Source of the DNA: Gammaproteobacteria bacterium
Lineage (GTDB): Bacteria > Pseudomonadota > Gammaproteobacteria > Steroidobacterales > Steroidobacteraceae
Length of the DNA stretch: 50,560 nucleotides
Direction: 5' to 3'
Assembly (NCBI GenBank): GCA_005878095.1
Contig: VBNH01000050.1
Location: 1-50,560, forward strand
Position numbers and translations under genes: made by a program. Below are positions 27,880-48,590 of this stretch, in pieces. Positions within the stretch are counted from its first letter, which is position 1; each line of letters starts with the position of its first letter. Under the pieces are notes generated by a model that was not told the DNA's origin, searched no databases, and saw nothing but the letters and a program-made list of their open reading frames with translations.

Positions 27880-28108
27880 GAGGTGTCCGTTGCAACGCAT
27901 GCGGGGCGAAGGCTGTGGCCGCGTGCGAAGCAACGGTTAAACGGGAAGTCCGGTGCGGATTCGTCCAAAGCCGGCGCTGCCCCCGCAACGGTAATCGAGA
28001 TCAGGCGGATCACATGAGCCACTGCGCCCCCTGAGGGGCACGGGAAGGCGATCCGCCGGAGCCCTGAGCTCCTGCTCGAGAGCCCGGAGACCGGCCTCGC
28101 GTGTCACC
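27880..28108 (+). ncRNA. Cobalamin riboswitch upstream of btuB
   Basis: Core elements occur in the right order: TTAAACGGGAAGTCCGGTG (27937-27955), GCTGCCCCCGCAACGGTAA (about 27976-27994), GCCACTG (28018-28024), and the B12 box AGCCCGGAGACCGGCCT (28081-28097). GGTG at 27882-27885 can pair with CACC at 28105-28108 as the closing stem. Cobalamin binding represses the downstream gene, here the B12 receptor. About 120 nt separate the aptamer from the btuB ATG and would hold the expression platform. The 27697-27879 stretch upstream presumably carries the promoter; nothing else definite was seen there. Confidence 0.95.
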
Positions 28109-28227
28109 GATGGGCGTCGCGGCGGGCGATGCTGGTCCGGCGGTACGCCTCGCTTACCGCGCGCCTGCCAGCTTCTGAAGCCACGACCCTTCGGGCACGG
28201 GTGTGTGCAAGTCAGGAGCTGGAGCCC

Positions 28228-30141
28228 ATGTCAACAGGTCTCGGTGCGCGCCGCGTGCTGGTGAGCGCGCTGATCCTCTCGAACGTCCTGCCCGCCTGGG
28301 CTGCCGGCGGCGCCCCCGGAGGGGATGCGGAGCCGCTGCAGCTCGTCGTCGTCAGCGCCACGCGCATCCCGACGCCGCAGCTCGACCTCGCCAGCAGCGT
28401 CACGGTGGTCACGGCCGAGGACATCGCGGCGCAGCAGCAGCGCACGATCGCCGACGTGCTCAGGAACATTCCGGGGCTCAACCTGGTGCAGCAGGGGGGA
28501 CCCGGGTCGGTGACCTCGGTGTTCATGCGCGGCACCAGTTCCAACCACACCAAGGTGCTCATTGACGGCATCGACGTCAGCGATCCGAGCAACGCCAACG
28601 CGGCGTTCGACTTCGGCCAGCTGCTGACGCAGGACATCGAGCGCATCGAGGTGCTGCGCGGCCCGCAGAGCGGGCTGTACGGCTCGGATGCCATCGGCGG
28701 GGTGATCAACGTCATCACCCGCAGCGGCTCGGGTCCGATGAAGCTCGCGGCCTCCATCGAGGGCGGCAGCTTCGACAGCTTCAACCAGACCGCCGGCCTC
28801 AGCGGCTCGCAGGACACCTTTCGCTACAGCGCCAACGTCGCGCACCTGCACTCCGGCGCCACCCCGGTCACGCCGCCCGACCTGCTCGGGCCCGGCGAGC
28901 CGCGTCACGACGACTACTACGACAACTTCACCGTCTCGACCAAGCTCGGCCTCGAGGTCGCGCCGTCCTTCGACCTCGGCCTGGTCGCCCGCTATACCAG
29001 CACCCATCTGCACTACACGGGCGAAGACTTCAGCACCTTCCCGGCGCTGCCCGCGGCCCAGCAGAGCGAGAGCAACACCGACGAGTACTACGGGCGCGCC
29101 ACCGCGCATCTGGTGTCGCTCGCCGGCGCGCTGGATCAGACTCTCGGCGCCGCGTTCATGCGCAATCAGACCGCGACGCTGCAACCGCAGACGCCGGAGG
29201 GCCTCAACACCGGCGAGCGCGTCAAGGTCGACTGGCAGGGCGCGGTCCGGCTCGCTGCCGCCGAGACGCTGCTGCTCGGTCTCGAGGACGCGCGCGATGA
29301 GATCAGCCAGCCGCTGTCGGCGAGCACGCGCATCGATTCGGGCTACGCGGAGCTGCAGTCGCAGCTCGGCGAGCACTGGTTTTCGGCCCTCAACGTGCGC
29401 TATGACGACAACGACCGCTTCGGCAGCAAGGTGACCTACCGCGTCGCTCCCGCGTGGGTGAGCCAGGCCAGCGGCACCAAGCTGAAGGCGAGCGTCGGCA
29501 GCGGCTTCAAGGCGCCGACGCTGAGTGAGCTGTTCCAGGACTTCCCGCAGTTTCTTTTCTTCGCCAATCCGAATCTGAGGCCCGAGAGCAGCGTCGGCTA
29601 CGACGCCGGCATCGAGCAGGACCTGGCCGGCAACCGGCTGCGCGTCGGCGCCACCTGGTACCACAACCGCATCCGCGACCTGATCACCACGGACGTAACC
29701 GCGACCACCTGGGCCAACGTCGGCCGTGCCACCACCTACGGTGTCGAGAGCTTCATCGCCTGGCAGGCGGCGAGGCAGCTCGCGCTGCGCCTCGATTACA
29801 CCTACACCGAGGCGAGCGATGAACTGGCGCACCAGGAGTTGCTGCGCCGCCCCAAGCACAAGGGCACGCTGAACGTGAGCTGGCGCCCGCGCGAGGCGCT
29901 GCTGCTCGACTTGAGCGTGCTCTCGGTGAGCACCTGGGTGGACGGTAACCGCGACTTCTCCATCCCGCGCCTCGATGCGCCCGGCTACACCGCAGTGAAT
30001 CTGGCGGCGGCTTTCGACCTCACGCGCACGTTCACCGTCTTCGGCCGGCTCGACAATCTTCTCGACCGGCGCTACGAGAACCCGGTCGGTTTCCTGCAGC
30101 CGCGGTTCCGTGCGTTTGCGGGCGTCAGGGCGAAGCTATAG
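28228..30141 (+). CDS. btuB: TonB-dependent vitamin B12 receptor
   Basis: 637 residues from the ATG at 28228, which has GGAGCTGGAG upstream; longer in-frame starts would begin in the riboswitch leader. The signal peptide ends near PAWA/AGG. A TonB-box-like LVVVSATR follows, then the plug (SVTVVTAEDIAAQQQRTIADVLRNIPG, VFMRGTSSNHTKVLIDGI, VLRGPQSGLYGSDAIGGVINV) and a 22-strand-type barrel including PAWVSQASGTKLKASVGSGFKAPTLSELF and LDNLLDRRYENPVGFLQPRF. It imports cobalamin across the outer membrane. The cobalamin riboswitch supports the substrate assignment. No btuCDF genes are adjacent. Confidence 0.95.
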   Translation: MSTGLGARRVLVSALILSNVLPAWAAGGAPGGDAEPLQLVVVSATRIPTPQLDLASSVTVVTAEDIAAQQQRTIADVLRNIPGLNLVQQGGPGSVTSVFMRGTSSNHTKVLIDGIDVSDPSNANAAFDFGQLLTQDIERIEVLRGPQSGLYGSDAIGGVINVITRSGSGPMKLAASIEGGSFDSFNQTAGLSGSQDTFRYSANVAHLHSGATPVTPPDLLGPGEPRHDDYYDNFTVSTKLGLEVAPSFDLGLVARYTSTHLHYTGEDFSTFPALPAAQQSESNTDEYYGRATAHLVSLAGALDQTLGAAFMRNQTATLQPQTPEGLNTGERVKVDWQGAVRLAAAETLLLGLEDARDEISQPLSASTRIDSGYAELQSQLGEHWFSALNVRYDDNDRFGSKVTYRVAPAWVSQASGTKLKASVGSGFKAPTLSELFQDFPQFLFFANPNLRPESSVGYDAGIEQDLAGNRLRVGATWYHNRIRDLITTDVTATTWANVGRATTYGVESFIAWQAARQLALRLDYTYTEASDELAHQELLRRPKHKGTLNVSWRPREALLLDLSVLSVSTWVDGNRDFSIPRLDAPGYTAVNLAAAFDLTRTFTVFGRLDNLLDRRYENPVGFLQPRFRAFAGVRAKL

Positions 30142-30296: not shown

Positions 30297-30677
30297 ATGA
30301 CCGAAGCCACGCAAGCTTCCGCACCCGGCACCGCGCCCACGGAGAACGAGCGCACCTGGGGCATGCTCGCACACCTGTCGGCGCTGGTCGGGCTCGTCAT
30401 TCCCCTGGTCGGCAACGTGTTGGGGCCGCTGCTGGTCTCGATCGCCCGGTCCGATCAGTCGGTCTTCGTCGCCGCGCACGCCAAGGAAGCCCTCAACTTC
30501 AACATCTCAGTCACGCTCGCGGCGCTCGTCTGCACGCTGCTGATGCTGGTGTTCGTCGGCTTCCTGCTGGGGAGCGCCCTGTTCATCGCCTGGCTGGTCA
30601 TGACACTCATCGCCGCCATCAAGGCGAGCGAGGGCGCGGCCTATCGCTATCCGTTTTCGCTGCGGCTGGTGAGCTGA
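30297..30677 (+). CDS. DUF4870 family small membrane protein
   Basis: 126 residues. Typical DUF4870 elements: NERTWGMLAHLSALVGLVIPLVGNVLGPLLV, then FVAAHAKEALNFNISV, two more hydrophobic helices (LAALVCTLLMLVFVGFLLG, ALFIAWLVMTLIAAIKASEG) and the terminal YRYPFSLRLV. It is an inner-membrane protein with four predicted helices, Tic20-like in fold, of unknown function. It stands alone between decayed fragments. The start ATG is at 30297, with no strong RBS. Confidence 0.88.
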   Translation: MTEATQASAPGTAPTENERTWGMLAHLSALVGLVIPLVGNVLGPLLVSIARSDQSVFVAAHAKEALNFNISVTLAALVCTLLMLVFVGFLLGSALFIAWLVMTLIAAIKASEGAAYRYPFSLRLVS

Positions 30678-31103: not shown

Positions 31104-31119
31104 CTGTGTATATATACAG
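31104..31119. promoter_or_regulatory. LexA (SOS) box
   Basis: CTGTGTATATATACAG is an exact CTGT-N8-ACAG with an alternating AT core, the LexA operator of beta- and gammaproteobacteria. It ends 7 nt before the ATG of the radical SAM gene, so bound LexA would block both the -10 region (TATATA at 31111-31116) and ribosome access. This implies DNA-damage induction of the intein-bearing gene. Confidence 0.8.
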
Positions 31120-31126
31120 TATCACC

Positions 31127-33250
31127 ATGCGCCGCACAATCACAGGCCGGCACACTTTCACTGGCAGGGGAGCGCTCTCTAATCCGCCCGGGCGCTTCGA
31201 TCTGCAGAAGCTCGAGGCGGTCGACGACGGCTGGTACCTCGAGGAGTCACCCGAGAGCATCGCCACGACGCTCGAGCCCGAGCGTGCGCGCTCGGTCATC
31301 AGCCACAACGACTCGCCCGACATTCCGTTCGAGCGCTCGATCAATCCGTATCGAGGATGCGAGCATGCGTGCTCTTACTGTGTAGCTGGAGACACAGCTG
31401 TTCTGATGGCTGATGGAAGCACGCGGCCTCTGTACCAGTTGAAGGTCGGGCACGAGATCTACGGCACCCGGCGCGTTGGACACAATCGGCGATTCGTAAA
31501 ATCCCGGGTGCTCGCGCACTGGAGCACCATCAAGCCCGCATTCCGAATAACGCTGGAGGATGGCACCACGCTCGTGGCCAGCGGGGATCACCGTTTTCTC
31601 ACGGAGCGGGGTTGGAAGTACGTGATCGGCTCTGAGCAGGGCAGAGCACGCAGGCCACATCTCACAAGGTTCAACAAACTCATGGGAACGGGGGCCTTCG
31701 CCGAGCGGGCACTTCAGAACGCGGATTATCGTCGCGGGTATCTCTGCGGCCTGATTCGCGGCGATGCTCTTCTGAAGACATACACCTGCCAACGCAACGA
31801 GGGACGCACTGATACATCGCACCAGTTTCGTCTCGCGCTCTGCGACCTTGAGGCCCTCGTCAGGGCTCGCAACTATCTCATCGACTTTGAGATCCGCACC
31901 TGCGGATTTCTGTTTCAGGCGGCCGCCGGCAACCGGCGGGCCATGCACGCGATCCGCGCTGGATCTTCCATGAGCGTTCAATCGATTCGAGAGCTGATCG
32001 CGTGGCCGACTTCACCGACGAGAGCGTGGTCGGGAGGCTTCCTCGCGGGGATATTCGACGCTGAAGGGAGCTTCAGCCAGACGGTCCTCCGCATTCCCAA
32101 CACCGATCCCGAAATCGTCTCCTGGATTCGGCGGTGTTTGTTTGACTTCAATTTCGCCTCCGTGATTGAGCACATCCCCCACCACGACCGCAAACCCATG
32201 GACGTCGTGAGACTGACGGGCGGACTGCGCGAGCACCTGCGCTTTTTCCACACAGTCTCACCCGCGATCTCCCGCAAGCTCGACATCGACGGTCAGGCCG
32301 TCAAGAGCGACGCCCCTCTGAAAGTAGTCAGCATTGAGCCGCTCAAGACCATGCGTCTCTACGACATCACGACCGAGACCGGGGATTTCATCGCCAACGG
32401 CGTCGTGAGCCATAACTGCTTCGCCCGCCCGAGCCACGCCTACATGGGGCTCTCGCCGGGCCTCGACTTCGAGACGCGCCTCTTCTACAAGGCCGACGCC
32501 GCGAAACTGCTCGAGGCCGAGCTGGCCCGGCCAGATTATGTCTGCAAGCCCATCATGCTCGGCGCGAACACCGACCCCTACCAGCCGGTAGAGCGGCGCA
32601 TGCAGGTCACGCGCTCGATCCTCGAAGTGCTGGCGCGCACCCGACATCCGGTCACCGTGGTCACCAAGAGCGCACTCGTGCTGCGCGACCTCGACCTGCT
32701 GAGCGGCCTGGCGCAGCAGGGCCTGGCAAGCGTCGCAGTCAGCGTCACGACGCTCGACGCCGAGCTCAAGCGCAGACTCGAGCCGCGTGCCGCCTCCCCG
32801 CAGGCGCGCTTGCGCACGCTCGCGGCGCTCAGCACTGCCGGGGTTCCCAGCGGCGTGCTCGTAGCACCGGTGATTCCCGCGCTCACGGACCATGAGATGG
32901 AGGCGATCCTGGCGGCGGCGGCCGAAGCCGGGGTGCGCTGGGCGGGGTACGTCCTGCTGCGTCTGCCGTATGAAATCAAGGACCTGTTCACCGAGTGGCT
33001 CGCCGAGCACTATCCCGAGCGCGCTGCGCACGTCATGTCGCTGATTCGCGCCATGCGCGGGGGGCGCGCCAACGACGCGAATTTCGGCTCGCGCATGCGC
33101 GGCACCGGGCCGTACGCCGTCCTGCTGAGGAACCGTTTCCGCATCGCCTGCCGGCGGCTGAACCTGAACTCCGCGGTGCGCGACCCACTCGATACAGCCC
33201 TGTTCTGTCCACCGGCTCCTGCCGGCTCGCAGTTGCCGCTGGGCCTGTAG
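31127..33250 (+). CDS. PA0069/Rv2578c-family radical SAM protein interrupted by an intein
   Basis: 707-residue precursor. Extein residues 1-84 end with SINPYRGCEHACSY, and the second extein starts CFARPSHAYMGLSPGLDFET. Joined, they give the radical SAM motif CEHACSYC (CxxxCxxC) and a 361-residue enzyme typical of this spore-photolyase-like family, including ANTDPYQPVERRMQVTRSILEVL, VTVVTKSALVLRDLDLL, GVLVAPVIPALTD and ANFGSRMRGTGPYA. The reaction is unknown; P. aeruginosa PA0069 is, to my recollection, LexA-regulated, consistent with the LexA box here and a DNA-damage role. The ATG at 31127 is the family start; there is no obvious Shine-Dalgarno, so the mRNA may be nearly leaderless. Confidence 0.93.
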   Translation: MRRTITGRHTFTGRGALSNPPGRFDLQKLEAVDDGWYLEESPESIATTLEPERARSVISHNDSPDIPFERSINPYRGCEHACSYCVAGDTAVLMADGSTRPLYQLKVGHEIYGTRRVGHNRRFVKSRVLAHWSTIKPAFRITLEDGTTLVASGDHRFLTERGWKYVIGSEQGRARRPHLTRFNKLMGTGAFAERALQNADYRRGYLCGLIRGDALLKTYTCQRNEGRTDTSHQFRLALCDLEALVRARNYLIDFEIRTCGFLFQAAAGNRRAMHAIRAGSSMSVQSIRELIAWPTSPTRAWSGGFLAGIFDAEGSFSQTVLRIPNTDPEIVSWIRRCLFDFNFASVIEHIPHHDRKPMDVVRLTGGLREHLRFFHTVSPAISRKLDIDGQAVKSDAPLKVVSIEPLKTMRLYDITTETGDFIANGVVSHNCFARPSHAYMGLSPGLDFETRLFYKADAAKLLEAELARPDYVCKPIMLGANTDPYQPVERRMQVTRSILEVLARTRHPVTVVTKSALVLRDLDLLSGLAQQGLASVAVSVTTLDAELKRRLEPRAASPQARLRTLAALSTAGVPSGVLVAPVIPALTDHEMEAILAAAAEAGVRWAGYVLLRLPYEIKDLFTEWLAEHYPERAAHVMSLIRAMRGGRANDANFGSRMRGTGPYAVLLRNRFRIACRRLNLNSAVRDPLDTALFCPPAPAGSQLPLGL
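31379..32416 (+). other. Intein with LAGLIDADG homing endonuclease, in-frame in the radical SAM gene
   Basis: 346 residues. It begins with Cys1 (CVAGDTAVLMADGSTRPLYQ, block A), has a block-B-like TLVASGDHRFLT, two LAGLIDADG-type motifs (GYLCGLIRGDA and GGFLAGIFDAEGSF) with their acidic residues kept, and ends with block F LYDITTETGDFIANG and block G VVSHN, followed by the +1 Cys at 32417. All splicing residues are present: Cys1, block B His, penultimate His, terminal Asn, +1 Cys. It lies exactly before the third cluster cysteine. Base composition is visibly lower in GC than the exteins, consistent with horizontal arrival. Confidence 0.95.
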
Positions 33251-48401: not shown

Positions 48402-48488
48402 TTTAGTGACAAGGGCAAACCCGTCGAAAGACGGAGACGCAAAGCTACCGGTCTAAGGGACGTTCCTATGACGGCGGGGCTGCCACGA
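48402..48488 (+). ncRNA. Cyclic di-GMP-I (GEMM-I) riboswitch
   Basis: Conserved elements in order: AGGGCAAAC (48412-48420), GAAA tetraloop in CGAAAG (48425-48430), GACGCAAAG (48436-48444), tetraloop receptor halves CTAAG (48453-48457) and CTATG (48466-48470), and GGCGGGGCTGCC (48473-48484). The match to the Vibrio cholerae Vc2 class is close. It precedes the SPOR-like gene by about 100 nt on the same strand. Confidence 0.93.
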
Positions 48489-48507: not shown

Positions 48508-48590
48508 ACGCTCGCACTCCTGCCGTCGCGCGAATCAGCGCAGTCCTCGAAGACCGTGTCCGTTGAGTGTTTGGGTTTTCGGGGAAGTTT

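Follow-up and report, generated by a model that had tools for sequence, protein, structure and literature searches.

A class 1 intein with a LAGLIDADG endonuclease at the third cluster cysteine of a PA0069-type radical SAM gene

The interrupted gene and its surroundings

The window, that is, the whole stretch of 50,560 nucleotides analysed here, carries a radical SAM gene split by an intein (Table 1). The intein translates without stops into 346 residues (CVAGDTAVL...VVSHN) and shares a single open frame with its exteins, of 732 residues counted from GTG 31052 or 707 from ATG 31127. The ATG is the most likely start of the host gene and leaves 361 residues once the intein is removed, the spliced length proposed in the initial annotation. 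That annotation had also placed here an intein of this size with a Cys1...HN/Cys arrangement and two LAGLIDADG motifs, and the translation, the profile matches and the fold agree with it. TIGR01445 (26-27.8 bits, cut-off 24.5), TIGR01443 (19.3 bits, cut-off 15.6) and Pfam LAGLIDADG_3 (PF14528; 25-27 bits, cut-off 22.5, in the endonuclease region) all score above their cut-offs on the intein, and Pfam Intein_splicing, at 27-30 bits, stays under its cut-off of 35.8. The cysteine nucleophile at position 1, the VVSHN/C sequence at the C-terminal junction, the invariant block B histidine (His71) and the Hint fold (Z 21.0 against the SspDnaB mini-intein) are those of a class 1 intein. The endonuclease region shows two motifs with acidic residues, GYLCGLIRGDA and FLAGIFDAEGSF, together with an I-DmoI-like fold, and is missing from the mini-intein of one genome of the genus (G035). 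The intein signal is far beyond chance. The genome is a draft assembly (191 contigs, 3.43 Mb), which leaves slight room for an assembly error at the junction, and the identical junction recurs in independent genomes.

Table 1. Features of the interrupted gene, with positions in the window
Feature	Position	Strand	Remarks
LexA-type SOS box (putative)	31104..31119	+	CTGTGTATATATACAG; 7 bases 5' of ATG 31127; same position in most homologues of the genus
N-extein, PA0069-type radical SAM protein	31127..31378	+	84 aa, ends CEHACSY; NF033668/NF038136 matches, uninterrupted relatives
Intein	31379..32416	+	346 aa; class 1 (Cys1, His345, Asn346) with LAGLIDADG endonuclease
Intein N-terminal splicing region	31379..31696	+	Intein 1-106; block B His71; TIGR01445; structure matches to SspDnaB, RecA and gp41-1 inteins
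LAGLIDADG homing endonuclease region	31697..32278	+	Intein 107-300; acidic motif residues D129 and E229, both kept
Intein C-terminal splicing region	32279..32416	+	Intein 301-346; ends VVSHN; TIGR01443; Pfam Intein_splicing at 314-346
C-extein	32417..33250	+	Begins with Cys+1, includes the stop; NF033668 over cut-off, Pfam Radical_SAM

The host protein scores 495 bits against NF033668 (the PA0069 family, cut-off 360) and carries the CX3CX2C motif of that family, in line with its first description as PA0069-type. Its whole-protein score against NF038136, the intein-containing Rv2578c family, is 497 and falls under the cut-off of 700. The precursor was modelled with AlphaFold2 from 48 relatives (mean pLDDT 81.5, pTM 0.54), and separate parts of it resemble the SspDnaB mini-intein (Z 21.0), I-DmoI (Z 17.7) and spore photoproduct lyase (Z 17.5); confidence is low at residues 77-82 and 432-442, in the cluster loop. 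The intein part superposes on the Hint splicing fold of the Synechocystis DnaB mini-intein and of the Nostoc DnaB and Mtu RecA inteins (Z 18-21, 1.6-2.3 Å), whose hosts, in contrast, serve in replication or recombination; another difference is that the window intein still has its endonuclease. The match to spore photoproduct lyase (4k9r, 4fhc) covers the radical SAM fold, with 251 aligned residues spanning both extein halves, although the identity to the window exteins is only 14%. The host is a spore-photoproduct-lyase-like radical SAM protein, and the portion of a Streptomyces phage paper that names Rv2578c describes that family as SplB-like. A literature search returned no paper pairing inteins with photoproduct lyase.

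The 3.43 Mb genome has two matches to the pattern CTGTNNATATNNACAG, one at the SOS box of the host gene and the other directly 5' of a LexA-like gene, which is followed by an ImuA-like gene (both identified by reading the sequence). Nearly all homologues of the genus have a CTG-N10-CAG box or a near variant at this distance from the gene, with the intein present or absent. This putative LexA box at the promoter is shared with lexA and is kept whether or not the gene carries the intein, which makes the host very probably an SOS gene irrespective of its insertion. The short distance between the box and the ATG leaves little room for a ribosome site, and the transcript may thus be leaderless. PA0069 itself we take to be a member of the P. 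aeruginosa LexA regulon, and a literature search found no paper linking PA0069 with LexA. According to a published survey, radical SAM proteins resembling SplB are associated with SOS gene clusters (PMC3765255).

Upstream, a TonB-dependent receptor gene (28129-30141), preceded by a cobalamin riboswitch (27899-28113; RF00174, 73 bits), and a DUF4870 gene (30297-30677) stand before the radical SAM gene; the receptor, DUF4870 and radical SAM genes follow one another likewise at another intein-bearing locus (L090). Further downstream, a c-di-GMP-I riboswitch (48404-48487; RF01051, 77 bits) lies 5' of a long reading frame that begins near 48567.

Cluster cysteines before and after splicing

The extein sequence around the insertion reads ...YRGCEHACSY / CFARPSHAYMG.... 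Because intein-free relatives keep an uninterrupted GCxHxCxYC(Y/F)ARPSHAY at this site, the junction and the +1 cysteine are confirmed as first described, and in the spliced enzyme, which reads CEHACSYC|FARPSH, Cys+1 is the third cysteine of the cluster. In the precursor, the sequence is C-EHA-C-SY-C|VAGDT and the third position of CX3CX2C is occupied by Cys1 of the intein. Across 48 full-length precursors that come from several phyla, residues C78, C82, C85 (Cys1), H429, N430 and C431 (Cys+1) are invariant. A census of junctions found Cys1 and Cys-3 in 81 of 81 loci and, at the readable C-terminal junctions, Cys+1 in 79 of 79 and HN in 78 of 79, with 13 further loci outside the census pattern, nearly all of them readable with an earlier one.

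The initial annotation had stated that the usual cluster cannot form in unspliced protein. This is contradicted by the precursors, which have a complete CX3CX2C (C78, C82 and Cys1 = C85) in 48 of 48 cases; a precursor devoid of the third cysteine is ruled out by the sequence, in which Cys1 fills the position. Judged from these sequences, the cluster motif would be available both before and after splicing, through Cys1 and then through Cys+1. The derived proposal, that splicing gates activation of the enzyme, therefore fails as far as missing ligands are concerned, since the precursor retains all three, and it survives in another form: the 346 residues inserted into the cluster loop could disrupt its fold and leave the precursor inactive. 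The cluster motif can survive an intein inserted at one of its cysteines when Cys1 of the intein substitutes for the displaced residue.

Distribution and mobility of the intein

A scan with the intein alignment over one genome per species returned at least 578 confirmed relatives from many phyla, the best 80 of which belong to Gamma- and Betaproteobacteria, Myxococcota, Actinomycetota, Planctomycetota, Omnitrophota, Gemmatimonadota, Armatimonadota and others. Every readable junction among these relatives falls at the CX3CX2|C point of the window intein, so that the suggested comparison with inteins elsewhere shows it to be one among hundreds and excludes an intein peculiar to this genome. The insertion point is already represented in NCBIfam by NF038136, which aligns with 346 of 346 residues of the intein (239 bits for the intein alone) and supports the relation to Rv2578c-family inteins that had been supposed at the outset. 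The insertion point of that sister radical SAM family is identical; the window host differs in being a PA0069-type protein. The window intein is thus a new case of a known, catalogued intein family at a known site. Of 299 sampled Pseudomonadota genomes, 111 have a PA0069 gene that scores over the cut-off; judged by match coordinates, the one in the window is the only one split by an intein.

Two viral contigs from IMG/VR (L174 and L175, 2878-4920) encode a radical SAM-like protein of another kind, interrupted likewise at CX3CX2|C by an intein of 39% identity. A product of phage KX853510.1 named 'radical SAM protein-like' (L181, 792-4061) reads instead as an intein-bearing, helicase-like ATPase whose name probably derives from the intein, and it was dropped as a phage version of the host. 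Other inteins in the genus of the window interrupt the replicative helicase DnaB (L080, L085) and a DnaE2-type error-prone DNA polymerase (L083).

Within this genus the intein is present in 21 of 58 genomes. In 37 genomes searched for the host gene, it is interrupted in 12 and uninterrupted in 18, one of the latter being frameshifted. On the extein tree of the genus, presence and absence of the intein require seven changes. The exteins of G440a and G027 are 90% identical, their inteins only 63%, and a tree grouping the two inteins is rejected (p-AU 4.6e-44, log-likelihood gap 145; the pair was chosen after the trees had been inspected). This result rules out purely vertical inheritance. Synonymous distances diverge as well, with dS of 0.30 for the extein and about 1.0 for the intein between the window and G428, and of 0.27 and 0.11-0.17, respectively, between the window and G429. 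Exteins and inteins have separate histories, the inteins having moved independently of their hosts. One genome (G440) holds two intein-bearing copies of the gene (L063 and L090) with different inteins; one copy may be foreign, as 4% contamination is reported for this assembly.

In the lineage of the window, the intein is under purifying selection including its endonuclease region, with dN/dS of 0.11-0.30 in the splicing parts, 0.17-0.22 in the endonuclease and 0.13 in the extein. A different situation is seen in pairs from the G030, G008, G036 and G006 clade, in which the endonuclease is nearly relaxed (0.61-0.86) and the splicing parts are still constrained (0.27-0.38). Endonuclease motif residues are lost in G036, G013 and G006, and the mini-intein of G035 (158 residues) is free of endonuclease and keeps all splicing residues. 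At another locus (L091), in a genome of a different family (G099), an N-extein is followed by a truncated, 57% identical intein, and no C-extein was found. By their sequences, the members of the genus would represent the stages expected of a homing cycle, from empty sites through active and decayed endonucleases to an endonuclease-free mini-intein. Such versions at one site in one genus form a natural set for asking whether inteins act as regulators or as mobile elements.

Splicing, persistence and possible control

The architecture, insertion site, conservation, selection and mobility observed above, together with splicing residues that outlast the endonuclease, point to a class 1 intein that is active, would splice to a working 361-residue enzyme and would persist by homing (probability about 0.93). 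It lies between Tyr -1 and the third cluster cysteine, in a probably SOS-controlled radical SAM gene from an uncultured member of the Steroidobacteraceae. Its excision after translation would begin with an N-to-S shift at Cys1, continue with transfer onto Cys+1 and cyclisation of Asn346, and end with an S-to-N shift that yields the uninterrupted enzyme with CEHACSYC. The window copy is accordingly expected to splice and its endonuclease to cut. The persistence of the intein would be accounted for by homing into alleles that lack it, at an active-site sequence that is highly conserved and in which nothing short of exact excision gives back the gene. Cys1 and Cys+1 both fill the third cluster position and so keep the motif in place before and after splicing; any control of the enzyme would be secondary and exerted through the chemistry of Cys1, by a Cys-3:Cys1 disulfide or by metal capture.

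The first of these routes would stall the oxidised precursor through the disulfide and free an oxygen-sensitive enzyme only in a reducing cell, a proposal that we regard as possible but doubtful. MoaA is a radical SAM enzyme as well. Its intein in Pyrococcus abyssi has the same pair, Cys-3 of the N-extein and Cys1 (CEHA[C]SY/[C] in the window), and a disulfide between them blocks splicing (PMC3922620, PMC10663303); the host enzyme and the domain of life are different, and a redox response, shown for MoaA, is a possibility for the window intein. The inteins of M. tuberculosis SufB, in the Fe-S pathway, and M. smegmatis DnaBi1 are likewise proposed redox sensors, with other insertion sites and trap cysteines (PMC6195587, PMC8891592). 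The structural matches include PDB 3nzm, a redox-trapped DnaE intein with its N-extein. Cys-3 and Cys1 are invariant, but CX3CX2C and class 1 splicing already demand both cysteines, so that their invariance does not argue for a switch and sequence cannot separate a switch from a by-product. Moreover, the intein is absent from 18 of the 30 genomes of the genus with a recognisable gene, and it behaves as a mobile element (seven changes on the tree, AU test). Redox gating is compatible with homing, to which it would add a benefit for the host, and it is not needed to explain the persistence of the intein, for which spread by homing suffices.

An extended version, in which the precursor captures Fe-S or forms the Cys-3:Cys1 disulfide and so times the release of an SOS-induced, repair-like enzyme by the redox or iron state after DNA damage, across hundreds of bacteria with the same insertion, seems unlikely. 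Whether inteins serve as stress sensors is a question to which splicing tests on this SOS-linked radical SAM host could contribute.

Metal or cluster gating would require the precursor to bind Fe-S or Zn through C-7, C-3, Cys1 and possibly Cys+1, and bound Cys1 could not start splicing, which would have to precede cluster loading or await release of the metal. All precursors carry the complete CX3CX2C with Cys1 as the third ligand, and Cys1 adjoins Cys+1 in the Hint active site. Against this, the model has low confidence at 77-82 and 432-442, where the geometry would have to be judged, and the intein may fold and splice ahead of cluster insertion. We consider this route quite improbable.

That the intein is inactive and the host gene effectively dead in this genome is very improbable: broken relatives exist (the truncated copy of G099 and the frameshifted one of G023), but the window gene has an intact frame with all splicing residues, an extein dN/dS of 0.13 and its LexA box, and a dead or chance insert is rejected on the intact frame, the selection and the recurrence of the insertion.
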